This document shows, one piece after another, positions 5,741 to 31,855 of a stretch of DNA of 35,134 bases. A program made the position numbers and the translations under genes. This DNA is from Lachnospiraceae bacterium (lineage in GTDB: Bacteria; Bacillota; Clostridia; Lachnospirales; Lachnospiraceae). Below the pieces are notes generated by a model that saw only the letters and a list, made by a program, of their open reading frames with translations, was not told the DNA's origin and ran no database searches. Positions within the stretch are counted from its first letter, which is position 1. Each line of letters begins with the position of its first letter. The stretch spans positions 1 through 35,134 of the forward strand of contig JAEEIK010000038.1 in NCBI GenBank assembly GCA_016281335.1, written 5' to 3'.

Positions 5741-7408
5741 TTATTTCCCCCATATGCTCTCAGCGATCCACCTGATACAGTCCTCGTCAAAAGGTGACTT
5801 AAGACCGCACTCCTGCAATTCCTCTTCATAGGGTTTCTTAACCGACAGGGCCGCTAATTTCATATAATCCTTCCATGCTCCATCGAAATCCTTATCCATC
5901 CTGATCTTGAACTGCATTGCACATACACTTGCAAGCACATAATCAATATAATAGAAGGGACTGTGGAAAATATGTCCCTGCTTCTGCCAGAAACCGCCTT
6001 CAGAGAAGAATCCTTCACCATCGTATTTTAACCAGGGTCTGTATTCTTCTTCGAGTTCCAGCCATACATTCTTTCTCTGCTTCGGAGTCATATCCGGCTT
6101 CTCATATACTATGTGCTGGAATTCATCTACCATGCAGCCGTAAGGAAGAAAGATAATGGAATCTTCCAGATGCATCTCAAGATACTTCTTAGCCTCATCC
6201 CCGAAGAATCTGTCCATCCATCCATAGGTAAAATATTCCATGGACATGGAATGTATCTCGGCCGTCTCCATGGTCAGATCGTTTGCTTCCCGTATCTCTT
6301 CGTTCCTGGTGATATAGCCCTGGAAAGCATGTCCGCATTCATGGGTTATCACATCCACGTCCGAGCTGGTCCCGTTGAAATTGGCAAAGATGAAGGGATA
6401 TTTATAGTCGGGCAGATAAGTCATATATCCTCCGGCTTTCTTGTCCTTTCTTCCCAGCACATCAAAGAGTTCATTCTTCATCATGAACTCGAAAAACTCT
6501 CCTGTTTCCGGTGAAAGCTCTTTATACATCTGTGCTCCAGCCTTCAATATCTTTTCGGGATCATTAAAAGGCTTGGGATTGCCGTCTTTAAAGAAAACGT
6601 CATTATCATATATCTTAAGTTCGGAAACTCCGATACGTTCACGTCTTTCCTCATGTATCTTCACCGACAGCGGCACAAAATACTTCTTAACTGCTTCCCT
6701 GAACTTAGCTACCATATTCCTGTCATAACTGTTTCGTCTCATTCTGTAATAGCCAAGCTCACGGTAATCTTCATAGCCCATCATACGAGCCTGTTGTGTA
6801 CGGTTCTTTACCATTCTGTCATAGATATCATCTATCTTCGGAGTAACCGCAGAAAAATATCCTTCCATTGCCTTCCATGCGCTTCTTCTGTGTTCCCTTG
6901 AAACATCAGTCAGATGCGGTCGCAATAATGACAGATTATAAACTTCACCTTCAAAAGGAATTTCAGCTGATGCTATCAGCTTATCATAAGCCATCTGCAG
7001 CTCGTTTTCTTCCTTCTTAAGCTCCTTGGTCTCTTCGCTGAAAGCTTTTTTATCAAGTTCCAGATTGATAAAAGCAAGCTTGCCGATCCTGCTTTCCAGA
7101 TAATCCCTGTAGGGAGAAGCCAGCATCAGTTCGCCGTATTCTTTCAGTTCCATGGCAAATTCCGGATCGAAGGCATTATAATATGTTTCTTCGGCATCGT
7201 AGAATTCGTCTTTTGTATTAACGGAATTGCGTATCTCGGAAAGAGTACGCTCTGTCATGATATGGTCTTTGAGCAGATACAGATCCTGATGCACCTTAAA
7301 CTGCTCTTCACCGCAGACGGCTGCCTGAAAGCGTACTTTCAAGGCAGCCATTTCTTTTTTCATATCTTCGAGTTCTATCCTTTTATAAGGGATCTCGCTA
7401 AAGGTCAT
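5741..7408 (-). CDS. M3-family oligoendopeptidase
   Basis: A 555-residue cytoplasmic zinc metallopeptidase of the M3 (oligoendopeptidase F / thimet) family. The zinc motif HECGH is at residues 356-360, and the third ligand is probably Glu384 in ETAEIHSMSME. The helical N-terminal half and the C-terminal region around FFSEGGFWQKQGHIFHSPFYYIDYVLA, which carries the family Tyr/His substrate-binding residues, are complete. It has no signal peptide. Such enzymes cut short peptides in the cytoplasm. Its ATG overlaps the stop of the dynamin-like gene (ATGA), indicating translational coupling, and the solute-binding lipoprotein follows after 4 bases. That order suggests imported peptides are its substrates. 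Confidence 0.93.
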   Translation of the reverse strand: MTFSEIPYKRIELEDMKKEMAALKVRFQAAVCGEEQFKVHQDLYLLKDHIMTERTLSEIRNSVNTKDEFYDAEETYYNAFDPEFAMELKEYGELMLASPYRDYLESRIGKLAFINLELDKKAFSEETKELKKEENELQMAYDKLIASAEIPFEGEVYNLSLLRPHLTDVSREHRRSAWKAMEGYFSAVTPKIDDIYDRMVKNRTQQARMMGYEDYRELGYYRMRRNSYDRNMVAKFREAVKKYFVPLSVKIHEERRERIGVSELKIYDNDVFFKDGNPKPFNDPEKILKAGAQMYKELSPETGEFFEFMMKNELFDVLGRKDKKAGGYMTYLPDYKYPFIFANFNGTSSDVDVITHECGHAFQGYITRNEEIREANDLTMETAEIHSMSMEYFTYGWMDRFFGDEAKKYLEMHLEDSIIFLPYGCMVDEFQHIVYEKPDMTPKQRKNVWLELEEEYRPWLKYDGEGFFSEGGFWQKQGHIFHSPFYYIDYVLASVCAMQFKIRMDKDFDGAWKDYMKLAALSVKKPYEEELQECGLKSPFDEDCIRWIAESIWGK

Positions 7409-10091: not shown

Positions 10092-13000
10092 TTAGTTTTT
10101 GATCGTCACGTTGCTTCTGCTGCCTTCGAAATTCTGCTTCTCCAGTGCACTGACGGTGGCTTTCGCTCCTGCCTTGTCCGTCAGTACTACCTTAAAGCTC
10201 TTCTTTATCTTTCCGGCACCCTTAAAGGTATAGGTCTTGAAGTATTGCTTATCTCTTTTCTTGCCCGGTACCTGCACCTTAATCTTGAGCTTCTTTAATT
10301 TCCTGATACTTCCGTCTTCATTGAGATCGATCTCATTATTCCTGAAGCCTGCCCACAGAGTCACTTCCGCAGCTTTGCCAAGGTCGATGGGAACTATCTT
10401 AAAGGTATACGGCTTATCACTGAACTCCTTATTCAGTGCCTTTACGAGTTCATTCAGGGCTTTTTTATCATTGCCTTTGATCTTTGCTTTTTTGAGCGTC
10501 TTCTTGTCTAAGCTGATACGTACGGTGAAACTGCCCTCGCTGTTTACCTTCTTTTCCTTGCCTATCTTTATACTTACCTTAAACAGTTTGTTAAGATCAG
10601 CCTCTTTATTCAGATCTTTTATGGCCTTATCCAGTCCCGTGGCAGTCACTTTCGCAATAACACCGTCTTTAGACAGCGCTGCCAGCTGCTCTTTGGTGAT
10701 CTTGCTGCCTGTCCAGGTCACAGCTTTAGGATATGCCACCGTAGCCTCTACCGAAACATCGGCATCATTTATTTTGCTCTCCTTCTTCGGAGTAAATACA
10801 AGCTGTTTCTCTGTATCCGGCTTGCCATCCTCCTTATTCTCTTCCTCTTTGTTTTCCTCTTCCTGCTTATTCTCTTCAGGATTATTCTCTTCCTGCTTCT
10901 GCAGCTTCTGTATCGGCCTGGTCTCTTTATGGCTCTCATCGTTCTCGCATACTCTTTCTTCCAGGCCTTCTTCTTCCTCAGTAGCTTCCTTTACCACTTT
11001 CCACACGCCCCATTTATGTCCTGTGGGCGCGGTTACCTTATTCTCGCTGACTATCACGTCATTGCCACAGCCCTCACAGTGGTAATGCCACTCCTCAACA
11101 TATGAACCGGCAGTCTCGCAGCCTGCAGGAACTTCTTTTGTCTTTATGGGCACAGTTCCTTCAGGACGTACATGGGCTGCTTTAACCGGAATATAATATA
11201 CAGTGTAATTCGGTTCCTCATAGATCGGGCCATAAGTATATCCTTGATACTTAAGGGCGGTATTCTCTCCTATGTAGCTGTTAAAACGGAGTTCTTCGAT
11301 ATCCACATAAGTATCGTCCCAATACGGATCAGTGATCTTAAAGGTATAAGTCTTTTCACCATTGAATACGGTATTTTCGCTTAAAGATACATGTTCCTCG
11401 CTTTCATCCACAAGGTCAAAAGCTCCTGCGGTAATTCCCGCTTCGAACTCTGCCGCCTCAGCGATGGTCAGGTCGTAATCTGCCCTGGTCTGTCCGCAGG
11501 TCGGAGGCTCTATGCTCTTAAGCTCTGCGCTCTCCTTCTCCTGCTTCCACTGAAGATATATGGTCAGATCCTCTTTCAGCTTGTCGTTGCAGACAGCGTC
11601 ATCATCTTTCATTAGTTCATCATAACTGCTGTATGAACGCTTCTTTCCATAACACCCCAGATTAAATTCATATCCGTTTTGTTCAGCGATCTCCGCCGGG
11701 GGATAATATCCATTGAATTCTTCAGCATCCATTGTGCCATGATCAGTGCAAATGTTCTCGTAATCCGCATAGCTGAGTTCGTTACCCAAGGCAGGCACAT
11801 CCACCATAAGCGCATCGAGTATGCTGAAATCCCCTTCGCTCAGAACCGTTCCCGCAGGCACAGCGCTTATACTGTGCACGCATTTTGTAACTCCATCCGG
11901 ATAATTAAAATCAAGAATGACATCGTAGAAATATTTGTCAGGCACAAAGCCAAATACGACATAATAGTATATGATGTCATCATCCCCGGAATAATGCTCA
12001 AGTGTAGTACGCTCTCCGTTTATGCTTATCTGCGGCAGGTTATTTTGATCAATATAACAACCTTTATTAGTATTAATGTATGCCCATGCGTAATACTGCT
12101 TTCCCTTTTCCAGTTCAGCGTCATAATCAAGTACCGTATTTCCGTCTTTATCTTCCGTTATGCGCCAGAGGCCGATGTTGAGCTGATTGTTCGCATCAGC
12201 GCCAAGGCATAAGTAAAAATCTGCTACCAATGTTCCCGGCTCCGGTACTTCAAATTCGAAGTCAGCCGCCGTAGCTTTTTCCTCCCTCACCCAGCTTGCC
12301 TTTAAGCAGATATCGTCGGTGAGAGAAGGCAAAAACTGCTGACTTACCCACTCATTTTCCGCCTCTTCATCATCAACGTACCAGTGATCGAGCAGATACT
12401 CTGTCCCGTCAACACTTGCCTTGAGATTGTCAAGCGCTTCCATGGTATCCGTATCCATCAGCTCACTTATAGTAGTAAAGCCTTCCTCAAATTCATATTC
12501 AGCCTTTACGCCCTCAGGAAGTGTTCCTATCCCCTTCAGATCAAAGCTGAGTTTATGGGATAAAGCTGTACCAAAGGTATATTTCTTGTAAAACAGGATG
12601 TCGCAATCCTCACAGGCGGGATGCTTTGTAAGTTTTTCGCCTCCCATTGTTACCGTCAGATCATTTTTGTCTATGGAATAGCCTTCTGCTCCTACGATCC
12701 TGAATATTGCAGCATAGGAATGATCCGTCGTTATCGCCACCGTCGCTTCCGCTTCCTGATCAAGTGATGCCGTAAATCCGCAGAACAATACTTCGGCCCC
12801 GTCGGAAACATCGGAGATAATGACACTTTCTTCAGTGGGTATGGTTCCTCCCACTTCCGGGTTCAATCCGCTCACCGTAAAGCTTACGTCGGTTACAGGT
12901 TCCAGCCACACTGCTTCCCAGTTCACATTATCTGCCAGCCAGCATTCACAAGTGGGATCGGCGACAGCCCCGCTTTCGATCATTTTCCATCCGCCGAATA

Positions 13001-14030
13001 CATATCCCTCTTTTCCCATATGCGGAAAACCGAAGGGATAATGATATGCTGCCGAATAGGTATATTGGTCATTTTCCTCATCATATTCAACAGTTTCTTC
13101 ATCCTCATTATAAACAAATGATATAAGCTTCCCTCCGTTCAGCTTAAATGTCATGTTCACATCGGAAGCAACCGTCCATTTAATATGAAGTTCCGTTTCT
13201 TCCGGTACTCCGTCAAGCGCTTTGCCCTCAAATTCTTCTACAAGGCAGCTGCTGTCCGGTTTGTAGCCCGTCCATGCCACTCTGTCCAGGTTATCATCAT
13301 ATGCAGGCAGTTTAAGCTTACGTTTGATCTCTTTAACAATGTCTGCACGGGTAGCAGACTCCGGAATCTGCAGCCATATATAGCTCTCATCATAGTTCCC
13401 GCCGTAATCCGGGATTTCATGTTCTCCGTACTCACTCATATTAAAGCCGCAGACATTGATATCGGATCCGTCATATGCATGCAGTTTATATGTCCTGAAC
13501 TTTTCAAATCTTACATACAGTACCGAGCCTTCCAGAGCCTTTGCAAACGCAGCGCTTAAGTCTGTTGTTTCTCCGCCTTCAACAACGTTTTCGTCATAAT
13601 CATCCTTGGTTATGGCAAAAACCAGCATTTTTGTAGCTACGTTACTGCCCAGATATGAATAATAGCCATCATAATCGCTCCAATACTCCATGATCGAGTA
13701 GTTTTCCGGAGCAACAGCATTTATCCCGTCATAATCATCCAGTACTACTCTCATAAGATATACAAATTCGGAATTGATATCTGAAGAGGGATTAAAATAA
13801 AAATAATTGACTTCTTCGTCCGCCTCAAATACGATAGGAGCTTCGGCGCTTGTGTCAATTGCATCTTCGGGATAAGTATACTGAATCGTTATACCGGTGT
13901 TCCCCGCTTCTTCCTTCACTTCCTCCGCGAAGGCTCCCAATAATGCCTCCGGAGCCATACCTGCGCAGATCACCGCGCACATTATCATTGCAATAAATCT
14001 TCTGAGCTTGTCTTTCATCCTGTTCATCAT
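10092..14030 (-). CDS. Large secreted surface protein with InlB-like and Cys-rich segments
   Basis: A 1312-residue exported protein. The signal peptide covers residues 1-35 (charged start, hydrophobic core, AFAEE cleavage region). The body is Tyr/Asp-rich beta-type sequence, with an InlB/Listeria-type repeat at about 290-378 (FGGWKM...VNWEAVW) and another likely one at about 500-582. Residues 970-1043 form a Cys/His-rich segment (HYHCEGCGN, TGHKWGVW, ERVCEN) of a type I associate with secreted proteins of this family. An acidic Glu/Asn/Lys linker (1045-1075) leads to a basic C-terminal module (about 1080-1312) that resembles the end of the 857-residue protein at 31971-34544. No LPXTG, SLH or catalytic motif is visible. 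AGAGG precedes the start, and only 9 bases separate it from deoD. The function is unknown; adhesion or wall association is inference. Confidence 0.75.
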   Translation of the reverse strand: MMNRMKDKLRRFIAMIMCAVICAGMAPEALLGAFAEEVKEEAGNTGITIQYTYPEDAIDTSAEAPIVFEADEEVNYFYFNPSSDINSEFVYLMRVVLDDYDGINAVAPENYSIMEYWSDYDGYYSYLGSNVATKMLVFAITKDDYDENVVEGGETTDLSAAFAKALEGSVLYVRFEKFRTYKLHAYDGSDINVCGFNMSEYGEHEIPDYGGNYDESYIWLQIPESATRADIVKEIKRKLKLPAYDDNLDRVAWTGYKPDSSCLVEEFEGKALDGVPEETELHIKWTVASDVNMTFKLNGGKLISFVYNEDEETVEYDEENDQYTYSAAYHYPFGFPHMGKEGYVFGGWKMIESGAVADPTCECWLADNVNWEAVWLEPVTDVSFTVSGLNPEVGGTIPTEESVIISDVSDGAEVLFCGFTASLDQEAEATVAITTDHSYAAIFRIVGAEGYSIDKNDLTVTMGGEKLTKHPACEDCDILFYKKYTFGTALSHKLSFDLKGIGTLPEGVKAEYEFEEGFTTISELMDTDTMEALDNLKASVDGTEYLLDHWYVDDEEAENEWVSQQFLPSLTDDICLKASWVREEKATAADFEFEVPEPGTLVADFYLCLGADANNQLNIGLWRITEDKDGNTVLDYDAELEKGKQYYAWAYINTNKGCYIDQNNLPQISINGERTTLEHYSGDDDIIYYYVVFGFVPDKYFYDVILDFNYPDGVTKCVHSISAVPAGTVLSEGDFSILDALMVDVPALGNELSYADYENICTDHGTMDAEEFNGYYPPAEIAEQNGYEFNLGCYGKKRSYSSYDELMKDDDAVCNDKLKEDLTIYLQWKQEKESAELKSIEPPTCGQTRADYDLTIAEAAEFEAGITAGAFDLVDESEEHVSLSENTVFNGEKTYTFKITDPYWDDTYVDIEELRFNSYIGENTALKYQGYTYGPIYEEPNYTVYYIPVKAAHVRPEGTVPIKTKEVPAGCETAGSYVEEWHYHCEGCGNDVIVSENKVTAPTGHKWGVWKVVKEATEEEEGLEERVCENDESHKETRPIQKLQKQEENNPEENKQEEENKEEENKEDGKPDTEKQLVFTPKKESKINDADVSVEATVAYPKAVTWTGSKITKEQLAALSKDGVIAKVTATGLDKAIKDLNKEADLNKLFKVSIKIGKEKKVNSEGSFTVRISLDKKTLKKAKIKGNDKKALNELVKALNKEFSDKPYTFKIVPIDLGKAAEVTLWAGFRNNEIDLNEDGSIRKLKKLKIKVQVPGKKRDKQYFKTYTFKGAGKIKKSFKVVLTDKAGAKATVSALEKQNFEGSRSNVTIKN

Positions 14031-14039
14031 CCTGTCCTC

Positions 14040-14774
14040 TTATTTAGTTAATTTATCCATCTCCACTGCAGTTTTCAGGGCTATCTCCATCATCTGGGTA
14101 AAGCTGTTCTGACGTTCCTCTGCAGAGAGCGCCTCATGGGTAAGTATATGGTCCGATACGGTGAAGAGTCCGAGGGCTCTCTTGCCGGCATAGGCTGCAT
14201 TCATATAGAGACCTGCGGTCTCCATTTCAATGCAGAGAACGCCCATCTTCATCCATTTATCGTTTGCATCTGACTGGGCATCATAGAAAGTATCCGAAGA
14301 AAGGATATTGCCCACATGATATCTGGCTCCCACTTCCTTTGCCTGCTCAATAGCCGTGGAAAGCAGACCATAATCCGCTACCGGAGCAAAGGTTCCGGGC
14401 AGTTCGAACTGTCTTGCATAATTACTGTTTGTGGATGCGCCCATGGCAAATACTATGTCCCTTACCTTCACATCCATGTTTATCGAGCCCGTAGAGCCTA
14501 TACGTATGATATTCTCCACTCCGAAAAAATTAAAGAGTTCGTAACTGTATATGCCTATGGACGGGATTCCCATACCGCTGGCCATAACGCTGACCTTAGT
14601 TCCGTTGTAGGTTCCGGTATATCCCTGTACTCCGCGGACATTGTTCACAAGCTTTGCGTTCTCAAGGAAATTCTCCGCTATGAATTTGGACCTTAAGGGA
14701 TCACCGGGCATAAGCACGGTCTTTGCAAAATCATCGGGTGTCGCATTGATATGCGGTGTAGGAAATGCTGCCAT
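14040..14774 (-). CDS. deoD: Purine nucleoside phosphorylase, DeoD type
   Basis: A 244-residue match to hexameric DeoD, which splits purine (deoxy)nucleosides with phosphate to give free base and (deoxy)ribose 1-phosphate in cytoplasmic purine salvage. Recognisable elements are GDPLRSKFIAE (phosphate and nucleoside binding, about 24-34), IRIGSTGS (about 90-97, phosphate contacts), CIEMETAGLY (sugar binding, about 181-190) and TVSDH with the catalytic Asp. The length agrees with about 235-240 in the family. AGGAGG lies 7 bases before the ATG. It is the middle gene of an operon: 11 bases after the kinase-like gene and 9 before the large secreted-protein gene. Confidence 0.96.
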   Translation of the reverse strand: MAAFPTPHINATPDDFAKTVLMPGDPLRSKFIAENFLENAKLVNNVRGVQGYTGTYNGTKVSVMASGMGIPSIGIYSYELFNFFGVENIIRIGSTGSINMDVKVRDIVFAMGASTNSNYARQFELPGTFAPVADYGLLSTAIEQAKEVGARYHVGNILSSDTFYDAQSDANDKWMKMGVLCIEMETAGLYMNAAYAGKRALGLFTVSDHILTHEALSAEERQNSFTQMMEIALKTAVEMDKLTK

Positions 14775-16063: not shown

Positions 16064-17311
16064 ATGGCCAGCGAGATCAGAGACATAGCTCTTGCCCCCT
16101 CCGGAGAACTTAAGATCGAATGGGTTAAAAACCACTGTGACCTGCTCCGCACTCTCGAGGAGGAATTCACTAAGACCAAACCCTTTACCGGTAAGAAGAT
16201 CGCTCTTTCGGTACATCTGGAAGCCAAGACCGCATATCTGTGCAAGGTACTTGCTGCAGGCGGCGCCGAAATGTATGTTACGGGTTCTAACCCTTTGTCG
16301 ACCCAGGATGATGTGGCTGCTGCCCTCGTTAAAGCCGGTCTGGAGGTTCATGCATGGCATGCCTGTACCGAAGAGGAGTACAATGCGCATATAAAAGCCG
16401 TCCTTAAGGTTGGCCCCAATATCATAATAGATGATGGCGGAGATCTGGTACATATGATGCATACCGAGTTCAAAGCCCTGATCCCTAATGTGATCGGCGG
16501 CTGTGAAGAGACCACTACCGGCATCATACGTCTGGAAGCAATGAACAGGGACGGAGAGCTTCTCTTCCCCATGGTCAAGGTCAATAATGCACAGTGCAAG
16601 CATTTCTTCGATAACCGCTACGGCACGGGCCAGTCCGTCTGGGACGGCATTAACCGTACCACCAACCTTATAGTAGCCGGCAAGACCGTTGTTGTGGCAG
16701 GTTACGGCTGGTGCGGCAAGGGCGTGGCAATGCGGGCAAAAGGTCTCGGCGCAAAAGTGATAGTTACCGAGATAGATCCGGTCAAGGCAATAGAAGCAGT
16801 CATGGACGGTTTTGAAGTAATGCCGATGAAAGAAGCTGCTGCCCTCGGCGATTTCTTTGTAACGGTTACAGGCTGTGACAAAGTAATAGATGAAGAAGAT
16901 TTTATGGAGATGAAGGACGGCGCGATACTCTGCAATGCAGGCCACTTTGACTGTGAGATCGACATGGCCGGTCTTCGCAAAATAGCCGTAAACAGCGCAG
17001 AACTCCGCAATAATATTATGGGCTACACCCTTTCCAACGGACGCACCCTTGCGGTTCTCGGTGAAGGCCGTCTCGTGAACTTAGCCTGCGGCGACGGACA
17101 TCCCGCAGAGATCATGGACATGAGCTTCGCGATCCAGGCTCTTTCCGCAAAATACCTTGTAGAACACGGAAGCGAGCTTAACTCAAAGCTCATCGATGTG
17201 CCTGAAGAGGTAGACAGGGATGTGGCCGTGAGAAAGCTCGCTTTCCTCGGTAAGAAGATCGATAAGCTGACACCCGAGCAGGAAAGATATCTTAATTCCT
17301 CCTCGCTCTGA
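16064..17311 (+). CDS. ahcY: Adenosylhomocysteinase (archaeal-type, short form)
   Basis: A 415-residue member of the S-adenosylhomocysteine hydrolase family, which uses bound NAD to split SAH into adenosine and homocysteine in the methyl cycle. Visible elements are SVHLEAKTAYL (His51 region), DDGGD (123-127), GCEETTTG (146-153), the KVNNAQCKHFFDNRYGTGQS block (172-191), the NAD motif GYGWCGKG (213-220) and GHFDCEID. It is shorter than the 430-480 residues of most bacterial and eukaryotic enzymes and ends without the usual KPDHYRY-type tail, as in archaeal and Thermotoga enzymes. It converges on an SAH/MTA deaminase gene with a 2-base gap. Related archaeal enzymes can prefer S-inosylhomocysteine, so the true substrate is uncertain. 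Confidence 0.93.
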   Translation: MASEIRDIALAPSGELKIEWVKNHCDLLRTLEEEFTKTKPFTGKKIALSVHLEAKTAYLCKVLAAGGAEMYVTGSNPLSTQDDVAAALVKAGLEVHAWHACTEEEYNAHIKAVLKVGPNIIIDDGGDLVHMMHTEFKALIPNVIGGCEETTTGIIRLEAMNRDGELLFPMVKVNNAQCKHFFDNRYGTGQSVWDGINRTTNLIVAGKTVVVAGYGWCGKGVAMRAKGLGAKVIVTEIDPVKAIEAVMDGFEVMPMKEAAALGDFFVTVTGCDKVIDEEDFMEMKDGAILCNAGHFDCEIDMAGLRKIAVNSAELRNNIMGYTLSNGRTLAVLGEGRLVNLACGDGHPAEIMDMSFAIQALSAKYLVEHGSELNSKLIDVPEEVDRDVAVRKLAFLGKKIDKLTPEQERYLNSSSL

Positions 17312-17313
17312 GC

Positions 17314-18591
17314 TTAACCTATACGATCCATTATATTTTGTGTTTCATGAAGGATCCTCTCCTCGTCAAGAGTGAGGATCTTTCTGTTTTCCATGGTTAT
17401 CTCGCCGTCGATGATAACGGTGTCGGCCTCGCTGCCGTTTGCGGAATAAGACAGTGACGCCACGGGATCATTCTTGGGCCACATGGACGGCTGCTTCATA
17501 TTCCATATGACAAGATCGGCCTTCTTGCCCTTTTCTATGCTTCCGCATTCCTTATCGAGTCCCAGGGCTTTTGCCCCGTTTATCGTTGCCATCTCAAAGG
17601 TCTCCACGGCGCTCACGCACTGGGGCGTTGCATGTGTACCCTTATGTATCAGGGCAACCAGGCTCATCTCATGGATAAGATTGAGCGCGTTGTTTGATGC
17701 CGCACCGTCAGTACCCAGGCAGACATTGATGCCCTTAGCCATCATTTCGGGAACAGGAGCAAAGCCGTTGCCAAGCTTCATATTGGAAGCAGGGTTGGTC
17801 ACTACGCTCACATTCTTTGCTGCCATTATATCCATATCGTGCTCATCAACCTGTACGCAGTGAGCTGCAATGAAAGGAACTTCGAAAAGTCCGCAGCGTT
17901 CAGCCAGCTCGATCGGTGAGCAGCCGTAATCTTTCCTGCAATTCTCTATCTCGGTCTTTGACTCGGACAGATGCATATGTATGCCCATTTTTTCCTTAAC
18001 GGCTTCCTTTGCAACGATCTTAAGATACTCCTCATCGCAGGTGTACGGCGCATGGGGCCCCAGTCTGAAACTCAGTCTGTCACAGTCCTTAAAAGCATCC
18101 CTTTCCTCATAAGCCTGCTTAAGCCTCATGCTTCCTGCCTCGTCTGTTCCGCTTCCCACCAGACCTCTGCATATCACTGCTCTCATACCCGACTCTTTTA
18201 CTGCAGCAGTGGTCTGCATGATATTCATCTGCATATCGTTAAAGCAGGTGGTGCCGCTCTTCATCATTTCAACTATGGCCAGCTGCGCTCCCCAGTATGC
18301 ATCCTTATCTGTCATTTTCTGCTCTATGGGATCTATGCGTCCGAAGAGCCAGTCCATAAAGGCCAGATCATCCGCGCAGTTTCTCATGAATGACATATAC
18401 GAATGGGTATGGGCATTGATAAGTCCCGGTGTCAGCAGCCTGTCCGTCCCGTCTATCACCTTGTCTGCCATAAAGCCTTCCGGCTCCTCATTGATCCCGG
18501 CTATCAGCTTTCCCGATATATACAGATCGATATCCTCCACCCTGACGGGATCATTCAGTATCGCCTTTATGTTTTTTATGAGTATGTTCAT
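17314..18591 (-). CDS. mtaD: 5-methylthioadenosine/S-adenosylhomocysteine deaminase family amidohydrolase
   Basis: A 425-residue metal-dependent amidohydrolase. Metal ligands are seen as His61 and His63 (NAHTHS), His205/His207 (IHMHLSES, with Glu210), His244 (AAHCV) and Asp295 (GTDGAASNN). The GLVGSG and RLGPHAPYTC regions fit the MtaD/SAH-deaminase group, which deaminates 5'-methylthioadenosine, SAH and sometimes adenosine to the inosyl forms. GGAGG lies just upstream. The gene follows the glycosidase-like lipoprotein by 14 bases, and its 3' end meets ahcY tail to tail. The product of this enzyme on SAH, S-inosylhomocysteine, would be a candidate substrate for the neighbouring AhcY. Relatives in the superfamily act on other amidines, so the exact substrate is moderately certain. 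Confidence 0.88.
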   Translation of the reverse strand: MNILIKNIKAILNDPVRVEDIDLYISGKLIAGINEEPEGFMADKVIDGTDRLLTPGLINAHTHSYMSFMRNCADDLAFMDWLFGRIDPIEQKMTDKDAYWGAQLAIVEMMKSGTTCFNDMQMNIMQTTAAVKESGMRAVICRGLVGSGTDEAGSMRLKQAYEERDAFKDCDRLSFRLGPHAPYTCDEEYLKIVAKEAVKEKMGIHMHLSESKTEIENCRKDYGCSPIELAERCGLFEVPFIAAHCVQVDEHDMDIMAAKNVSVVTNPASNMKLGNGFAPVPEMMAKGINVCLGTDGAASNNALNLIHEMSLVALIHKGTHATPQCVSAVETFEMATINGAKALGLDKECGSIEKGKKADLVIWNMKQPSMWPKNDPVASLSYSANGSEADTVIIDGEITMENRKILTLDEERILHETQNIMDRIG

Positions 18592-20363: not shown

Positions 20364-21290
20364 ATGAGTTTATCCGTTCTGATCCAGCAGATGCTGGTTA
20401 TCCTGATACTCGTATCCATCGGCTTTTTACTCTACAGAAAAAATGTTATAGACAATGCCACTTCCAAAAAGCTCTCGGCTATCGTAGTGGACGTCTGCAA
20501 TCCCGGTCTCATCATGGCCTCGATACTCTCCGGCGGCATCACCGCCACTCACAGGGATCTGATCGTTGCCGTATGCCTGGGCGCCGCTTTCTACCTGCTG
20601 CTGATCCTGCTTGGTTTCATCATTCCCCTGCTGCTTCGCGTCGGTAAAGGCGAACGGCGTTTTTACAATCTCATGACTGTTTATACCAATACCGGCTTTC
20701 TTGGTATTCCCTTAGCACGAGCCATACTGCCGCCCAATGCCGTATTGTATGTTATCGTCATAAACATCTTCTACAGCCTGCTTTTCTATACCCACGGTCT
20801 TACGGTGCTCGGTCCCGGCAAGACCGGAGAGAAGAAAAAAAATCCGCTGCTTTCGATCATCAACCCCGGAACGATAATGGCCGTCTTAAGCCTCTTTGTA
20901 TTCTGGTATGAAATAAATCTTCCTCCCGTACTTGCAAACACCGTGCAGTATGTAGGAAATGCCACCGTATTTTTATCCATGTCACTTCTCGGCGTATCGA
21001 TAGCCAGATCGCAGATAGCAAAGTCACTTAAGGATCTGCGCATCTGGGGATATATACTTCTGCGCATGCTGCTGGTACCTGTAGCTATCGTACTGATAAT
21101 GCGCGCAGCCGGCTTTGACAATACTGCGGTCCTTGCTATGTGCTTAATGGCTGCGGTTCCGGTCGGCAATCTTCCGATGATACAGGCAGAAAAAATAGGA
21201 GAGGATACCCGCATCCTCTCCTCAGCAATAGCAGTCACCACTGCAGTCTCACTGTTAACCATCACTCTGTTGTTGTCCTTCTTCTCTTAA
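20364..21290 (+). CDS. AEC-family (auxin efflux carrier-like) transporter
   Basis: A 308-residue integral membrane protein of the AEC family, with about ten hydrophobic segments in the pattern of five-plus-five helices. Typical features are LVSIGFLLYRKNVID at the start, KLSAIVVDVCNPGLIMASIL, TNTGFLGIPLARAILP, and the late AAVPVGNLPMIQAEKIGEDTRILSSAIAVTT segment. Bacterial members export malate or other small organic compounds; the substrate here is unknown. The start at 20364 is preferred because CAGGAG lies about 10 bases upstream and the longer reading frame would include tRNA-Leu and its terminator. Its stop codon shares the bases TTAA with the stop of the convergent DegV-kinase gene. Confidence 0.9.
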   Translation: MSLSVLIQQMLVILILVSIGFLLYRKNVIDNATSKKLSAIVVDVCNPGLIMASILSGGITATHRDLIVAVCLGAAFYLLLILLGFIIPLLLRVGKGERRFYNLMTVYTNTGFLGIPLARAILPPNAVLYVIVINIFYSLLFYTHGLTVLGPGKTGEKKKNPLLSIINPGTIMAVLSLFVFWYEINLPPVLANTVQYVGNATVFLSMSLLGVSIARSQIAKSLKDLRIWGYILLRMLLVPVAIVLIMRAAGFDNTAVLAMCLMAAVPVGNLPMIQAEKIGEDTRILSSAIAVTTAVSLLTITLLLSFFS

Positions 21291-24028
21291 TACTCGGTAA
21301 AGAACAGCAGGCCGAAAGTGCCCGGTCCGCAGTTGGCGGCTATACTCGGTGAAGCCTTCTGTATGAAGACTTCATCAAAGCTTGCATATTTCTCTGCCAT
21401 TGCCTTTACTTTCTCCAGTTCTCTTGTGGTCATCCCTACATAGGTGATGAACAGCATTCGCGTATCTATCTTATCCTGAACATTAAAGGCATTTGCGATA
21501 TATCTTTCCCATGCATGCTCCCTTGATCCGAAATACACCTTTGCCACCTTCATCCTGCCTTTCTTAAGGGCCACTACAGGATGGACCATAAACGCGTTCG
21601 CCATGCTTCCCACACCGGCTCCCACCAGTTTCTGCCTTACCAGGAAATCCAGAGTATCTACTATAAAGCTGGTATGGACATGGCTCTTCATTTTCTCCAT
21701 CCTTAAGATTATGGCTTCGGCGCTCATTCCCTCATTGGCAAGCCTTGCTGCTTCTATTGCCATAAGTCCCAGACCGCTTGAGAGATGGCCGGAATCGATC
21801 ACGCTCACGTTTCCGAAGTCTTCCGCCACATCCATTATACGTGAGTATTCTCCTTCTTCCAGCCCGCTCGAAAGCGACAGATAGATGATATTGTTTGCTT
21901 CATCCAGACGATCCGAAAAGAATTTTTCCAGCTGCTCCGGATAAGGCGGAATTGCTTTTGCAAAAGAGTCAGGGTCTGACATATACGCCATCAGTCCGCT
22001 GGTCTCTATCTCAATACCGTCCTTGAATACACCGTCACCGGTCTTTACGATATGGGGTATCACTGCTATGCCGTATCTGGCCTGCAGGGCTGCGGGAATA
22101 TCCGCAACACTTCCGGCGGTTATCCTTACCGCCGATTTTTTCTTATGCTCTCTTATCCACTCGATACTCTCCTCTTCGAGAGACTGCGTCGTATGTGTCA
22201 CCGTGATCAGTTCCTTGGGAAGCAGACGGTATACGGTATTCTCAAGTTCTTCACCTGTGACAGGCTTCATCAGATATCCGTCAAAACCTTCCCTTGCATA
22301 CATGCTCTCGTTATCGCTGCCCGCATTGGCGGTAAGAGCAACGACTCTTGTATCATGGCAGAATCCTCCGGTCTGGTTCCTGATAGCATGCATGCACTCG
22401 ATACCGTCCATACCGGGCATCTTATGATCCATCAGTATCACATCATAATGCTTATCAACTGTTTTCTTTAAGGCCTCAACGCCGGACTCCGCAGTATCGA
22501 CCTGCACCTTCGTTTCCTTAAGCAGCTTTTCGACTACCATAAGATTTGCTATGGTATCATCCACCACCAGTATCTTTGCTTCGGGTGCTTCGAAGGATTC
22601 CACATACTCATGTTCCTCGCGGGACTTGCCGTGACGATGTTCGATATCCAGCTCGCCTACGGGTTCTTCGTTTACTATCTTCTGGGGAATGCTTATGACA
22701 AAAGTCGAACCCTTGGTATATATGGAATTGACGGTGATCTTTCCTCCCATCAGATCTGTCAGGTTCTTAACAATGGATAAGCCGAGACCGGTTCCTTCAA
22801 TGTAACGGTTCTTCGCTTCATCTACGCGCTTAAATGCAGTGAACAGATGAGGCATGCTTTCCTTCTTTATACCCATGCCCGTATCGCTGACCGAATAGGA
22901 GACCATCACACTGCCGTCACCGTTTCGTTCACTCTGTATCGCAAGCCTTACATAACCTTCGCTGGTATACTTTATGGCATTATTCAGTATGTTGATGAGA
23001 ACCTGTTTTATCCTGACTTCATCTCCGTACAGTTCGGAAGGGAGTTCCGGGGATATATCCACATGAAAGGCAAGATTCTTTTCCCTTGCCTTTATCCACA
23101 GCATTCCGACTATATCGGAAAGCATGTCGCCTGTACGGTACGGCGCATTGTTCAGCTTCATCTGCCCTGATTCAAATTTAGACATATCAAGTATGTCATT
23201 TATAAGATGCAGCAGCATATGACTTGCAGCCTGTATGTTCTGGGCATCTTCATTTATCTCTTCCGAGGCATTCTGCCTCAGTATCATTTCGTTAAGGCCT
23301 ATGATGGTATTTATGGGGGTCCTTATCTCATGGCTCATGTTAGAAAAGAAACGACTCTGGGATTCGTTAAGCTTTTTGATCTCTTCCCCCTGTTCTTCCT
23401 TTTCCAGTATCTGCTCCCTCATCATATGTTTCAGATATGATGTTAAACATCCCAGCACAAGCTGTACTGCAACGAAGATGGCAAAGTCCCTGAAGTTGCT
23501 TCCGCTGATCGCACTGTCTGTTCCCTCGTTTAAGTACAGTGCCAGCACTACCGCGTCCGATATGCCTGTCAGGAAAAGATATATCCTTACATCCTGATAA
23601 AAACAATAGGGAATACAGAAGGAAACGATCATAAAAAGCATGGCATCTATTCCGCCGTAGGCTATGTTATCAAGCATGATCATCCTTATCGCCCAGGCCA
23701 GGGTAAAAAGAACCATGATACTGTTGATCGCAGGTATCTTCCTGTAATTATCATCAAATCTGCGGTCCAGTACCAGCAGTATGATCACATATAAAGCAAT
23801 GACTGCGCCCATGCCGAGATAGGAAACTCTGTACTCTCCGATAAAGGCTTCGTTCGCATATGATTCAGGCCATATATATGAAAAAATGAAACAGGCACAC
23901 ATAGCCAGAGTGATCACCGGTCCGACGATCATCGAGGTATTGACCGACTCACGTATACCGGTTTTTCTTAAGGCTTCGAATCTCGGATTTTTCTTTGGAC
24001 GAAATACATAATCGAAAAATTTTCTCAT
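21287..24028 (-). CDS. Hybrid histidine kinase fused to a DegV (fatty-acid-binding) domain
   Basis: A 913-residue membrane kinase. About six hydrophobic helices (31-200) form the sensor. A coiled linker leads to the H-box SHEIRTP (phospho-His233), then N-box (Asn350), DTGMGI (382-387) and GTGLGLSI (412-419), all intact. A receiver follows (about 484-602; Asp534 in LMDHKMPGMDG, Lys588). Residues about 633-913 form a complete DegV domain: the TAGSVADIP opening, YLSLSSGL, VIDSGHLSSGLGLMAIEAARL, FIVDTLDFLV and HPVVALKKGRM all match DegV/FakB proteins, which bind one fatty acid. I know of no described kinase-receiver-DegV fusion. The start overlaps the upstream kinase stop by 4 bases. No FakA-type kinase is in the window. 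The DegV domain may sense a lipid or be controlled by the receiver. Confidence 0.92.
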   Translation of the reverse strand: MRKFFDYVFRPKKNPRFEALRKTGIRESVNTSMIVGPVITLAMCACFIFSYIWPESYANEAFIGEYRVSYLGMGAVIALYVIILLVLDRRFDDNYRKIPAINSIMVLFTLAWAIRMIMLDNIAYGGIDAMLFMIVSFCIPYCFYQDVRIYLFLTGISDAVVLALYLNEGTDSAISGSNFRDFAIFVAVQLVLGCLTSYLKHMMREQILEKEEQGEEIKKLNESQSRFFSNMSHEIRTPINTIIGLNEMILRQNASEEINEDAQNIQAASHMLLHLINDILDMSKFESGQMKLNNAPYRTGDMLSDIVGMLWIKAREKNLAFHVDISPELPSELYGDEVRIKQVLINILNNAIKYTSEGYVRLAIQSERNGDGSVMVSYSVSDTGMGIKKESMPHLFTAFKRVDEAKNRYIEGTGLGLSIVKNLTDLMGGKITVNSIYTKGSTFVISIPQKIVNEEPVGELDIEHRHGKSREEHEYVESFEAPEAKILVVDDTIANLMVVEKLLKETKVQVDTAESGVEALKKTVDKHYDVILMDHKMPGMDGIECMHAIRNQTGGFCHDTRVVALTANAGSDNESMYAREGFDGYLMKPVTGEELENTVYRLLPKELITVTHTTQSLEEESIEWIREHKKKSAVRITAGSVADIPAALQARYGIAVIPHIVKTGDGVFKDGIEIETSGLMAYMSDPDSFAKAIPPYPEQLEKFFSDRLDEANNIIYLSLSSGLEEGEYSRIMDVAEDFGNVSVIDSGHLSSGLGLMAIEAARLANEGMSAEAIILRMEKMKSHVHTSFIVDTLDFLVRQKLVGAGVGSMANAFMVHPVVALKKGRMKVAKVYFGSREHAWERYIANAFNVQDKIDTRMLFITYVGMTTRELEKVKAMAEKYASFDEVFIQKASPSIAANCGPGTFGLLFFTEY

Positions 24029-26609: not shown

Positions 26610-28838
26610 CTATCTGCTTTCCTTAAACACAGTGCCAAGCAGCTCTTTATAACTCAAAAACAGTCTCAGTAATTCTGCGTTATTATCACTGATATATGCC
26701 TCATCTTCACGCTTCCCTGCTTTCTCCAGCATAAATGCTTTCTCCGAGAGTTCATCCGCTCCTATAATCAGGGCCGAACCTTTAAGTGAGTGCACGCTGA
26801 TCGCATAGTTTTTATAATCTCTTTCGGAGAAGAAATGCTCTATCTCCTCTGCCTTTTCATCTATCGTATCGTAAAATACTTTTAATACATTCAGATATGC
26901 TTTTGCACTGCCGCTGTTCTCTATACCCTTTACCGTATTGATCCTGTCCTGATCTTTAAGGCAAGCCAGTTCGGGCGAGGATGCCTCCTCCTCTGCTTCC
27001 GTTTCCATGACAGTAAGTTTATCCTTAGGCAGATATGTACGGAATAGTTCCTCAAGTCTGTCGGTATTTATCGGCTTGGTCAGATAATCATCAAAACCTT
27101 CGGAAATGTATTTATCCCTCGCTCCAGATATCGCATTTGCCGTAAGACATACCGCTGGAGTATTTAAACTCTTCGCTTCCGTGTTCTGACGCAATTCATG
27201 GAGCACTTCTATTCCGTCTTTGACCGGCATCATATGATCAAGGAAGATCAGATCATATTCTTTATCAGCGGCCATTCTCAACGCTTCCTCACCGCTTTCA
27301 GCCATATCTATCCTGACTAAGGTCTGCTTAAGGAGACTCTTGAATACCATCAGGTTCATGGCATTGTCATCTGCTATCAATACCCTGGCATCCGGCGCCG
27401 TAAAACTTACTTTGTATTTCTTTCTTCCTTTGAGCAGAGTCCCGTATGCTTTTTCATAATCACCCAGCTGTTCCCATTTTACAACACCCTGCTTTAAAGT
27501 AAAAGAGAACTTTGATCCCAGGCCGTACATACTCTCCACCTTCAGATCGCTTCCCATCATCCTGAGGAGTCTCCGGGTGATGCTCATACCAAGGCCCGTG
27601 CCCTCTATACTCCTGTTCCTTGCTTCATCAACACGCTCAAACTCCGAGAATATCCTCTCCAGATCATCTTTTTTTATACCTATGCCCGTATCCTTTACAG
27701 CCACCTTGAGCAGTATGCTTTCAGCTTCATCTTCTGTCTTTTCGTAGGCTATCGAGAAAGTGATATACCCCTTTTCCGTATATTTCACGGCATTGGAAAG
27801 TATATTTGTTATCACCTGCTTGATGCGTACATCATCGCCACGCAGCATTTTGGGCAGACTGCTGTCAAAATCAAGTTTAAGCTCAAGGCCTTTTTCGTCA
27901 GCTCTTTTCTGCACCATATTCACCAGATCGTTTATGACCGAAGACAGATCATAATCAACCGGTATTATCTCCATCTTTCCGGCCTCTATCTTTGAAAAAT
28001 CCAGAATATCGTTTATTATACCGAGCAGCGTATTGCCTGCAACTTTTATTCCTTCGGAATATGCCACGATATTTGTGTCATCACATTCACGCAGTATCAT
28101 CTCGTTCATGCCAAGCACGGCATTCATAGGAGTACGTATCTCATGGGATACGTTTGAAAGAAAAGCGGACTTTGCCTCACTGGCTGCGATGGCCCTTTCT
28201 GACACGTCCTTTTCCTTCTTCAGATTTTTGTACTGCTCTATCAGGCTTTTATAATGGTTCGACATGATGTTGCTTAAGCTGTAGCCGGCAACTATCATAA
28301 CGATGGTCTCTATGGTAAGGCCGCCGAGACGGCTTACAAAATAATCATAGGAAGTTTCAAAATCTATCCTGCGCGCAGTAAAATATGATGACATATGCCA
28401 GGTGGCAAATACCATGAAGCCGTAATTGATCACGACAGCGAGGGAATACAGATTAAAATCACAGAACTGCAATGATAAAAGCGGAATAAGAAACCAGGTG
28501 ATATAGATGGTAAGATGCGCGCTGTCCATTACCACCAGCAGCACATCGATAGCAAAGAGTGCGAGGATGGATGTGAGCATTGATGAAGAAAACCTTTTCA
28601 TCATATGTCTGTGAAGCAGGGCCAGCACAGCCATGAATGCCGAGATAAACATGGCAGTATAATAAGTCACTCCGTGAAACACATTGAATTTAACAGCTAC
28701 GGCAATGAACGGCCCCGCAAGTATACAGACCAGCAACACCTTATTAAACTGCTCATTGATCATCTTCCGGTTTTCAAGCAGGAAGCTGTCAAAATCCGAG
28801 ATGTTTTCCCGGGCTATCAGTTGCTCTCTTTTATCCAT
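26610..28838 (-). CDS. Hybrid histidine kinase with receiver and HPt
   Basis: A 742-residue membrane kinase with about six hydrophobic helices (34-190), a coiled linker, H-box SHEIRTP (His232), N-box Asn349, DTGIGI (383-388) and GTGLGMSI (413-420). A receiver follows (about 484-603; Asp534 in FLDHMMPVKDG, Lys588 in LTKPI), then an HPt domain containing VHSLKGSALIIG (His683). All relay residues are intact, so His-Asp-His transfer should be possible within the chain. Its ATG overlaps the upstream stop in a TAATG junction. The segment from the ATPase to the receiver (WEQLGDYEKAYGTLL) is closely matched in the upstream gene product, which appears to be a reduced paralogue. The signal is unknown. 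Confidence 0.93.
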   Translation of the reverse strand: MDKREQLIARENISDFDSFLLENRKMINEQFNKVLLVCILAGPFIAVAVKFNVFHGVTYYTAMFISAFMAVLALLHRHMMKRFSSSMLTSILALFAIDVLLVVMDSAHLTIYITWFLIPLLSLQFCDFNLYSLAVVINYGFMVFATWHMSSYFTARRIDFETSYDYFVSRLGGLTIETIVMIVAGYSLSNIMSNHYKSLIEQYKNLKKEKDVSERAIAASEAKSAFLSNVSHEIRTPMNAVLGMNEMILRECDDTNIVAYSEGIKVAGNTLLGIINDILDFSKIEAGKMEIIPVDYDLSSVINDLVNMVQKRADEKGLELKLDFDSSLPKMLRGDDVRIKQVITNILSNAVKYTEKGYITFSIAYEKTEDEAESILLKVAVKDTGIGIKKDDLERIFSEFERVDEARNRSIEGTGLGMSITRRLLRMMGSDLKVESMYGLGSKFSFTLKQGVVKWEQLGDYEKAYGTLLKGRKKYKVSFTAPDARVLIADDNAMNLMVFKSLLKQTLVRIDMAESGEEALRMAADKEYDLIFLDHMMPVKDGIEVLHELRQNTEAKSLNTPAVCLTANAISGARDKYISEGFDDYLTKPINTDRLEELFRTYLPKDKLTVMETEAEEEASSPELACLKDQDRINTVKGIENSGSAKAYLNVLKVFYDTIDEKAEEIEHFFSERDYKNYAISVHSLKGSALIIGADELSEKAFMLEKAGKREDEAYISDNNAELLRLFLSYKELLGTVFKESR

Positions 28839-29881: not shown

Positions 29882-31855
29882 TCAGGATATATGGAAAGTC
29901 TCTACCGTCTTCTGCAGATTCTCTGCCTTATCTGATATAAGATTCACTTCCTTTGCAGTCTCTTCCGAATTGGCGGTTATATCCTGTATGCTCAGATTCA
30001 CTGACTGTATCGCGGAATTCAGATTCTTCTGCGAATCATTGAGTCTCTCAAGTGAATCATTGATATTGGTCATGGATGCAGCCAGCTCCTCTGCTCCTGC
30101 GCCTATGGTAGCTGACTCATTGGCATAGAACTCCGCATCACTCTGATAATCCTTTGCAAGGGTTGCCAGTGTTCCGTAATCCCTCATTACATCCTCGCTT
30201 AAGAAAGTGATGACCTTGGTGCTTTCATCCGAAAGCCGCTTTACGCTGTCCATAACCTTCTCGATTATGCTGTTGATCTTCTCTATCTCATTGGCTGTTG
30301 TCTGTGAGAGATTCTTGATCTCGTTTGCGACCACGGCAAAGCCCCTGCCCGCATCGCCGGCTCTTGCTGCCTCTATTGAAGCATTAAGAGCAAGAAGATT
30401 GGTCTGGTCTGCAATCTCATTGATGCTGTTTGATATATCCGATATCTGCTCTATGACCTTTGTATCTTCTATGGCTTCTGAGAGCTTCCTGCTGCTGTCT
30501 TCGGCTATGGAAACAGCCTTATTACGATTCTCTATGATCTCCGGTAAGGTCTCATCTATATGCGCTATTATCTCACCGGCTTTCTCTGCCATCTTCTGTG
30601 TATCGTTGGCCAGCGATTCCACCGCATCGGATACTTCGGCACTCATGGTAAAGATATTGTCGATGTTTCCGGACTGCTCGTTTGTATTCTCACTGGCTGT
30701 CTCCATGGCGTTGCATACGTTTTCTATGCTGTCGTTCATGGCAAGCACATGATTATTGGTATTCTCTATCTCGCGTCCGATAGCTTCCGAAGCCGTTGCC
30801 GTATCTCTTATGGTAGAAAGGAATCTGGTTTCCAGCTCATCGAGAAGATAACTGATCTCATCATTCTCGGAAGGCATGTCCTTTACGTTTTCCCTGCCTA
30901 CTACCCTGTCCTTAACGAACAGACGCATACGGCTAAGCTGCGCGAGATGTGAATTAAGTCTCAGTCTTACCACCACTATCGATATGATCGTGATAAGTAT
31001 AGCTGCGCCGATACCGAGGAGCACCACTCTTCTTAACTTTGAATACTCAACCGAACGTGACTGGGATACGCCGAGTTTCCATCCTGTTATCTCTATCGGC
31101 GAGATCACCATCATCTTTGTATTGTTATCGTAATCCTTTACTATCTGCACGCCCTTTGCATTCTCATCAAAAGGCACGACATCTGCAAGCTTTGTGGTGC
31201 CGTCTTCGGTAGGGTTAAATGCCTCATTGGGATGAACTATCACCGAACCGTCTCCTGCCAGAAGGAAGCTCTGCATCGTTTCATCGGATGCTATATCATT
31301 GACTGTTTCAAGCAGCGAATCTAGTGAGATATCAGCCAGCACCGCACAGGTATGTCCCTCGCACTTATAGGGCACCGTAGCGGATACTATCATAGATCCG
31401 GTTGCGAAATCCTGATAAGGATCCGTATAGACCAGATGTCCGGCTGCCTGTGCATCTATCCACCAGCCTCTGGTGGTCGGATCCAGATCCAGTACAGAAT
31501 GATCGGCAGGGTATACACCCCCGTCATAATCGTAGCAGACATAATACATTAATGCTGCCGGGTTTACTTCCAGGCACTCTGCAAGATAATCCATAATGGC
31601 ATCGGTATCTTCATAGGTAACTGTGGAAAGGCTCCTGGACATCACCGTTACCAGATCGCCCTGTTCCTTCAGCCAGGCATTTATAAGTTTAGCGTTATTA
31701 TTCGCATCGACCTCGACTTTCTCCCTGCTGTTTTCCTCAGTGACCCTCGATGTCTCCACCGCGCTTATCAGCACAGTAAAAAAAGCCGTGACAACAATAA
31801 ACAGCATTACTATCAGGACTATCCTGTCTTTGATGTGCCACATCAATTTTCTCAT
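29882..31855 (-). CDS. Methyl-accepting chemotaxis protein with dCache sensor
   Basis: A 657-residue chemoreceptor. A first membrane helix (11-32) precedes an extracellular double-Cache domain (about 35-270). The second helix (276-297) leads to a HAMP-like linker and a long cytoplasmic coiled coil, whose tip [21 protein letters not shown], continuing [18 protein letters not shown] (480-517), is the conserved CheA/CheW contact. Within the sensor, Arg129, Trp131, Trp132, Tyr143, Asp145 and Asp175 (TTRGWW, YTDPYQD, ADIS) are placed as in amino-acid-binding dCache receptors such as PctA, so an amino acid ligand is a reasonable guess. No C-terminal CheR-docking pentapeptide is seen. A ribosome site GGGGG precedes the ATG. 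It heads the run of kinase genes. Confidence 0.93.

Follow-up and report, generated by a model that had tools for sequence, protein, structure and literature searches.

We analyzed a 35,134-nt stretch of DNA from a Lachnospiraceae bacterium (contig JAEEIK010000038.1, assembly GCA_016281335.1), called the window below, which carries a gene for a hybrid histidine kinase that ends in a domain of the DegV/FakB family (histidine kinase-receiver-DegV, HK-REC-DegV). We found that this architecture recurs in many genomes, that the DegV domain has a complete fold with replacements at the residues on which FakB fatty-acid carriers depend, and that the gene commonly overlaps or closely follows one for a second hybrid kinase, which ends in a histidine phosphotransfer domain (HK-REC-Hpt). 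The features of the gene and of its neighbors are listed in Table 1.

A hybrid histidine kinase with a complete DegV fold

A first examination of the letters alone (the sequence-only reading) had described one uninterrupted frame with six hydrophobic helices, an intact H-box and ATPase core, and an intact receiver with Asp534 and Lys588, and all of this held up. The frame encodes 913 amino acids on the minus strand with no stop, and a hydropathy script placed hydrophobic segments at residues 34-52, 68-86, 101-119, 122-140, 147-165 and 181-199. By sequence, the protein has the H-box His, the N and G boxes and the receiver Asp and Lys of a hybrid histidine kinase, and the catalytic residues of its kinase core are kept. 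In an alignment of the 49 hybrids described below, D534 and K588 were each present in 48. NCBIfam models of the BarA/ArcB/TorS type were among the best matches, over approximately residues 204-623, all far under their own cut-offs. Because the model of the full-length protein had a predicted template-modeling score (pTM) of only 0.42, it could not be used to assess contacts between domains.

The remainder of the protein is a full-length DegV domain. The Pfam DegV profile (PF02645) matched over positions 2-279 of 280 with 139.1 bits (E = 2.4e-40; cut-off 27), and TIGR00762 matched with 151.5 bits (cut-off 99.7). An AlphaFold2 model of the domain, made from an alignment of 48 sequences, had a mean predicted local distance difference test score (pLDDT) of 89.5 and a pTM of 0.87. 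In a Foldseek search of the PDB, the 45 best matches to this model were all DegV/FakB chains (top values: 2dt8, E = 2.6e-24; 1pzx_B, template-modeling (TM) score 0.85 by query length), with DhaQ/DhaK and the C-terminal domain of FakA well behind. The window protein belongs to the DegV family and its fold is complete. Thus, the earlier description of a complete DegV/FakB fatty-acid-binding domain was right about the fold; the functional residues of FakB, treated below, are replaced.

Table 1. Features of the HK-REC-DegV gene and of the gene run that contains it
Feature	Position	Strand	Evidence
HK-REC-DegV gene, 913 aa	21287..24028	minus	ATG start, frame free of stops; Pfam and NCBIfam matches
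Six transmembrane segments, residues 34-199	23432..23929	minus	Hydropathy; helices in full-length model
HisKA, residues 224-288	23165..23359	minus	Pfam 65.9 bits; phospho-acceptor His233 at 23330-23332
HATPase_c, residues 335-450	22679..23026	minus	Pfam 92.6 bits; Asn350, Asp382, Gly384, Gly412, Gly414 kept
Receiver, residues 486-599	22232..22573	minus	Pfam Response_reg 84.1 bits; Asp534 and Lys588
Linker between receiver and DegV, residues 600-633	22130..22231	minus	Residues 612-628 pLDDT <50 in full-length model
DegV domain, residues 634-911	21296..22129	minus	Fold complete; Ala692, Glu724, Gln799, Leu801, Phe833, Asn899 at FakB positions
Partner kinase HK-REC-Hpt, 854 aa	24025..26589	minus	Hpt 23.7 bits, just under cut-off 24.6
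Second HK-REC-Hpt kinase, 742 aa, same gene run	26610..28838	minus	Pfam
Partial HATPase and receiver, no HisKA match, 340 aa	28838..29860	minus	Pfam
Methyl-accepting chemotaxis protein with dCache domain	29882..31855	minus	Pfam; upstream end of gene run

Recurrence of the architecture

No described HK-REC-DegV protein was known to the sequence-only reading, and none was found in the literature that we searched with DegV or FakB terms, the coverage of which was partial and included few subscription papers. Where the papers listed mention both DegV and kinase terms, their accessible portions on DegV concern stand-alone genes. In genomes, the HK-REC-DegV order proved to be recurrent and conserved, in keeping with the earlier proposal that DegV is joined to a phosphorelay. 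The window's own genome carries a second such protein (C73, L038; 902 amino acids), and 138 of 200 genomes of the same family had a match at E ≤ 1e-12. We examined the 49 matches listed outside the own genome that had open frames longer than 500 amino acids. These comprised 47 hybrids, one HAD-DegV fusion (L089) and one short frame (L090, listed as an open frame of 695 amino acids, with 292 codons from stop to stop, and left out of A1). Together with the window protein and L038, this gave 49 hybrids, with profile matches to DegV in 49, HATPase in 48, REC in 47 and HisKA in 46 (after subtraction of the HAD-DegV row from a scan of 50 rows); one hybrid, L064, is cut by a contig end. The HAD-DegV fusion (L089:9160-10830; 556 amino acids) joins a HAD hydrolase (residues 3-196) to a DegV domain (269-546) in which the FakB residues are kept.

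A scan of named genomes gave at least 591 pattern matches, at least 560 of them to relatives, and we kept the best 80. The H-box motif lies in the DegV frame at 77 of these 80 loci. At the other three, L155 and L171 run off their contigs and L145 is a closed frame of 596 amino acids that lacks the motif. The H-box His and DegV also share one frame in 46 of the 49 hybrids. Since relatives keep kinase and DegV in one frame, a sequencing error that had made two separate genes look like one was ruled out.

Restriction to the window's own family was ruled out as well: NCBI places 38 of the 80 named loci in Lachnospiraceae, 19 in Oscillospiraceae, 3 in Eubacteriaceae and 20 in no family. Many of their titles name rumen or gut samples. 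In a search of 398 genomes of the phylum, with mostly six candidates scored per genome, the frames longer than 500 amino acids among the matches listed were all from the own family (two in G000, G444, G180), except for a 580-amino-acid frame in G268. There was no indication of plasmid cargo in a tblastn search that matched at least 5000 plasmid records, phages not being searched: among 5000 of them, no single match region spanned 80% of the query, and coverage in the ten listed was at most 53%. Conservation differed along the protein, with mean pairwise identities over 34 sequences of 0.83 for HisKA, 0.74 for HATPase, 0.65 for REC, 0.55 for DegV and 0.19 for the N-terminal membrane part.

Loss of FakB residues from the DegV domain

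The accessible portion of a study of FakB describes the fatty-acid carboxylate of FakB1 as surrounded by Thr62, Ser95, Ser171 and His270, Arg173 as required in catalysis, and Arg205, conserved throughout FakB, as serving FakA docking and membrane encounter; it also describes FakB protein that has lost the carboxylate network as unstable (PMC8892158). We mapped these positions onto 4x9x (FakB2, chain number minus 20) as Thr61, Ser93, 168, Arg170, Arg202 and His266, and equated the Arg202 column with FakB1 Arg205 by motif. We take these to be the FakB2 residue numbers, as supported by the constant offset and the motif. The scored FakB set consisted of Thr/Ser61, Ser93, Arg170, Arg202 and His266. 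Position 168 was left out because 24 of 28 other DegV domains have Gly there, so that the column of FakB1 Ser171 does not discriminate. We scored 50 hybrids (the 49 above and L094, a receiver-DegV fragment at a contig end) and 28 other DegV domains, which were four PDB chains, L089 and 23 stand-alone proteins (L090, L039, L040, one L041 gene, and 19 of the 20 best-scoring frames shorter than 400 amino acids, the 20th of which was L094 and was moved to the hybrids).

The full FakB set was present in none of the 50 hybrids, compared with 25 of the 28 other DegV domains. The three others without it were L090 and two unfused genes, L091 and L093, which group with the hybrids (see below). The window protein has Ala692 at Thr61, Glu724 at Ser93, Gln799 at 168, Leu801 at Arg170, Phe833 at Arg202 and Asn899 at His266. 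The His266 column holds Asn in 45 hybrids, His in 1 and other residues in 4; at the 80 named loci it holds Asn in 78, Ser in 2 and His in none. At Arg202, Arg was found in 1 of 50 hybrids and none of the 80 loci, compared with 26 of the 28 other DegV domains, and Phe occupies the column in 70 of the 80. At Arg170, Arg was found in 24 of 50 hybrids and none of the 80 loci, 77 of which have Gln. The Thr61 column, with Pro in 29 of the 80, is aligned less surely. Replacement this uniform suggests selection for another ligand, and the loss of carrier function together with the new head-group set likewise suggests a changed ligand rather than decay. A plain carboxylate bound as in FakB is made less likely by the missing positive residues.

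The sequence-only reading had cited DegV/FakB proteins as holding a fatty acid for phosphorylation by FakA, and for this domain such a role is not supported: canonical FakB identity is ruled out by the residues at the FakA-docking, catalytic and carboxylate positions, and judged from the same residues a phospho-switched carrier fed by FakA is unlikely. The related possibility that DegV acts as a FakB, its bound fatty acid being phosphorylated by FakA so that phospholipid supply is linked to the phosphorelay, can appeal to the family and fold and to the presence of FakA, yet the docking Arg and the His are nearly absent from the hybrids and stand-alone DegV proteins with the FakB set occur in the same genome; we consider it highly improbable. 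Absence of FakA from the own genome was ruled out, as one FakA was found, along with three stand-alone DegV proteins that have the full FakB set; the genome can thus fill the fatty-acid kinase role by these means. Two stand-alone DegV genes lie in tandem in the own genome (L041:7885-9663), and a DegV-like frame of 152 amino acids (L007:1438-1896) matches part of the profile only and is perhaps a remnant.

In a tree of the 78 DegV domains, a branch of length 0.63 with support 100/100 separates the 50 hybrids, together with L091 and L093, from all the others. The hybrid DegV domains and these two unfused ones are one clade. Taken alone, the hybrids need two label changes on the tree (in 16% of bootstrap trees, one is enough). 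L091 and L093 may therefore have lost the kinase part, or they may reflect an older state without the fusion.

A partner kinase upstream

We compared neighborhoods over both genome sources combined, with genes called by a longest-frame rule under which 2 of 129 loci (L055 and L155) were lost, leaving 127. The same-strand gene directly upstream belongs to one kinase cluster in 107 of the 127 loci, the cluster being single-link and containing the hybrids themselves. The other 20 comprise 11 loci with less than 1.5 kb upstream and 9 with another gene. Partner and hybrid genes overlap in 73 of the 107 (by exactly 4 bases in 49), and the gap is at most 30 bases in 99. In the window, the end of the partner gene, with its stop codon, and the start of the HK-REC-DegV gene share the 4 bases ATGA, and AGGAG lies just upstream of that start. 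Of the 107 partners, 43 were scanned with profiles; all 43 have HisKA, HATPase and REC, and 42 have Hpt.

The two unfused clade members are placed similarly. Both L091 and L093 directly follow an HK-REC-Hpt gene, with overlaps of 13 and 4 bases, and a REC-GGDEF gene follows L091. Among 20 stretches around DegV frames of stand-alone length, the H-box motif was found only near these two and in none of the other 18. Taken with the partner data, this indicates that the DegV of the clade goes with HK-REC-Hpt whether fused or not, wherever this was testable, with nine exceptions.

These arrangements bear on whether DegV is an output. HK-REC-effector is the order of many output fusions; DegV comes after the receiver, across a linker modeled with low confidence, and the membrane part varies, as inputs may. 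Phosphorylation of the receiver could then gate binding or release by DegV, making it a phospho-switched carrier that works without FakA. However, L091 and L093 adjoin an HK-REC-Hpt gene although they themselves lack a receiver, and six hybrids of 1117-1152 amino acids (L067, L070, L071, L073, L074 and L076) carry Hpt after DegV, so the chain can extend past DegV. We regard an output role as quite unlikely.

A ligand-free scaffold, in which DegV would keep the pair of coupled kinases together, or a kinase with the regulator, is unlikely. The overlapping genes suggest a fixed complex, and a network whose loss destabilizes FakB (accessible portion of PMC8892158) is missing. Against this, the head-group replacements are uniform and polar (Asn in 45 of 50 and 78 of 80), and the glycines after DSG are mostly retained, G752 in 40 and G754 in 45 of the 50 hybrids.

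Genes for c-di-GMP turnover near the hybrids

The gene at position -2, that is, beyond the partner, could be assessed at 99 loci with a partner. At 66 of these it is a regulator of one cluster, with motifs for HD-GYP in 45 and GGDEF in 17 (3 have both), and neither in 7. One further HD-GYP gene at -2 lies outside the cluster, which brings HD-GYP to 46 of 99 and any cyclic di-GMP (c-di-GMP) motif to 60 of 99. In a profile scan of 27 of these 66 regulators, all 27 had REC, 19 had HD and 16 had GGDEF. At the paralogous locus L038, genes for REC-HD-GYP, HK-REC-Hpt, HK-REC-DegV and an EAL protein stand in a row, and REC-HD-GYP lies beside HK-REC-Hpt by profile match at both L038 and L042. In the window, the gene at -2 is another HK-REC-Hpt, followed by the partial HATPase-REC gene, which lies between two signaling genes and looks like a decayed kinase, and then by the chemotaxis receptor.

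As a control, we counted motifs in the 20 stand-alone stretches, a small set of shorter stretches that includes the contig-end hybrid L094. HD-GYP, GGDEF and H-box motifs each occurred in 2 of 20, the GGDEF and H-box pairs being L091 and L093, compared with 50, 29 and 123 of 126 hybrid loci. Eight loci among L077-L088 have a receptor-like gene of approximately 450 amino acids at -2, with MCPsignal confirmed in L081, and seven have a gene of approximately 170 amino acids at -3 that looks CheW-like by eye.

A proposed two-kinase phosphorelay with a DegV module

We propose that a two-kinase phosphorelay like RpfC/RpfG has taken in DegV as a regulatory module, probably one that senses a ligand, and we think that this proposal is evenly poised between right and wrong. 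HK-REC-DegV would be one half of the relay, and the HK-REC-Hpt protein from the upstream overlapping gene the other. The C-terminal DegV domain would descend from a FakB-type carrier of fatty acids and would have entered signaling probably once. Its fold has been kept, but the residues that dock FakA and bind a carboxylate in the FakB manner are lost, as is the acyl-phosphorylation residue in the window's subclade. The domain has a conserved set of its own instead: by FakB2 numbering, Asn at His266 and, in the subclade, Gln at Arg170 and Phe at Arg202 as well. We infer that DegV binds a ligand and most likely serves as a cytoplasmic regulator of kinase activity, reading a cytoplasmic or membrane-derived compound and setting two coupled kinases. 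Phosphate from both kinases would flow to the Hpt of the partner and on to a response regulator, which in many loci would make or break c-di-GMP. A lipid sensor feeding the kinase, the other option of the sequence-only reading, is possible.

Several observations weigh against this proposal. The order of receiver and then DegV does not settle which of them is input. Two hybrids, L075 and L086, match only HATPase and DegV, with no HisKA or REC match and no kinase partner upstream; they are perhaps kinases that no longer carry out phosphotransfer. Neither an HD-GYP nor a GGDEF motif is found at -2 in 39 of 99 loci, and HD-GYP, GGDEF and EAL had no profile match among the 19 window proteins scanned, so the window has no adjacent regulator of this kind. 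The two genome sources share some loci (L043 and L160 seem to be a single contig), and the counts are therefore not independent. Thr/Ser61, Ser93 and Arg170 are retained together by 17 of 50 hybrids, and Arg170, counted alone, by 24, so the loss of FakB residues is graded outside the window's subclade. Finally, at some head-group positions (Ala692 and Leu801) the window protein differs from the rest of its subclade, and its head-group site could be decaying. The last point would also suit a chance fusion that is tolerated and functionless; this we find barely credible given one clade in many genomes, the DegV identity seen in the 34 sequences, and a frame that is kept.

The accessible portion of the literature on Xanthomonas describes RpfC as a hybrid kinase with receiver and Hpt that works with the REC-HD-GYP regulator RpfG in the sensing of diffusible signal factor (PMC3749722). 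The likeness to the hybrid loci lies in the HK-REC-Hpt partner and the REC-HD-GYP gene at -2, in adjacent genes at many loci; it is one of domains, no RpfC or RpfG sequence having been compared. The hybrid loci differ in adding a second kinase with DegV, and the window locus in having no HD-GYP gene. Kinases of the BarA/ArcB/TorS type share the core of kinase and receiver. BarA and TorS end in Hpt, as do the window's own paralogues, whereas the window protein ends in DegV.

Compared with FakB1 and FakB2 of S. aureus, the window DegV has the same full-length fold, but it is fused to a kinase and a receiver, and its docking Arg and network His are replaced, as is the catalytic Arg in the window's subclade. 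DhaQ, a DhaK paralogue that acts with a transcription factor as co-activator of the Lactococcus dha operon, is a protein of similar fold turned regulator; the match is weak (2iu4 and 2iu6, TM 0.56 and 0.58 by query length), and its associate is not a histidine kinase. FakB4 of Streptococcus pyogenes is, in the accessible portion of PMC10138225, a stand-alone DegV protein that does not feed exogenous fatty acid into phospholipids, is thought to bind endogenous acyl chains and is linked there to no kinase. By description, the only basis of this comparison, it resembles the hybrid DegV in standing outside exogenous fatty-acid feeding and differs in being stand-alone with no kinase link.

The known role of DegV/FakB proteins is that of carriers in lipid metabolism, and a large clade with uniformly altered working residues, near or fused to hybrid kinases and often accompanied by c-di-GMP genes, would be a new class of intracellular receptor for kinases. 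The signals for attachment and motility of rumen and gut bacteria are little known, and our proposal bears on such hosts, many of the loci coming from rumen and gut samples. A broader and more doubtful suggestion is that anaerobic Clostridia of gut and rumen may have a lipid or amphiphile signaling system built like RpfC/RpfG, in which DegV with its redesigned head-group site would be the receptor for a neutral or otherwise non-carboxylate acyl compound, their own or their neighbors', and would set c-di-GMP through the two coupled hybrid kinases.

Other genes in the window

Elsewhere in the window, we noted a dynamin-type GTPase of 843 amino acids (7405-9936), a 1312-amino-acid protein with no Pfam match (10092-14030), and a protein with four Flg_new repeats and a Big_2 domain (31971-34544). 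Genes for a phosphorylase superfamily member (14040-14774), an S-adenosylhomocysteine hydrolase (16064-17311, plus strand) and an amidohydrolase (17314-18591) are close neighbors, grouped as in S-adenosylhomocysteine or purine salvage.

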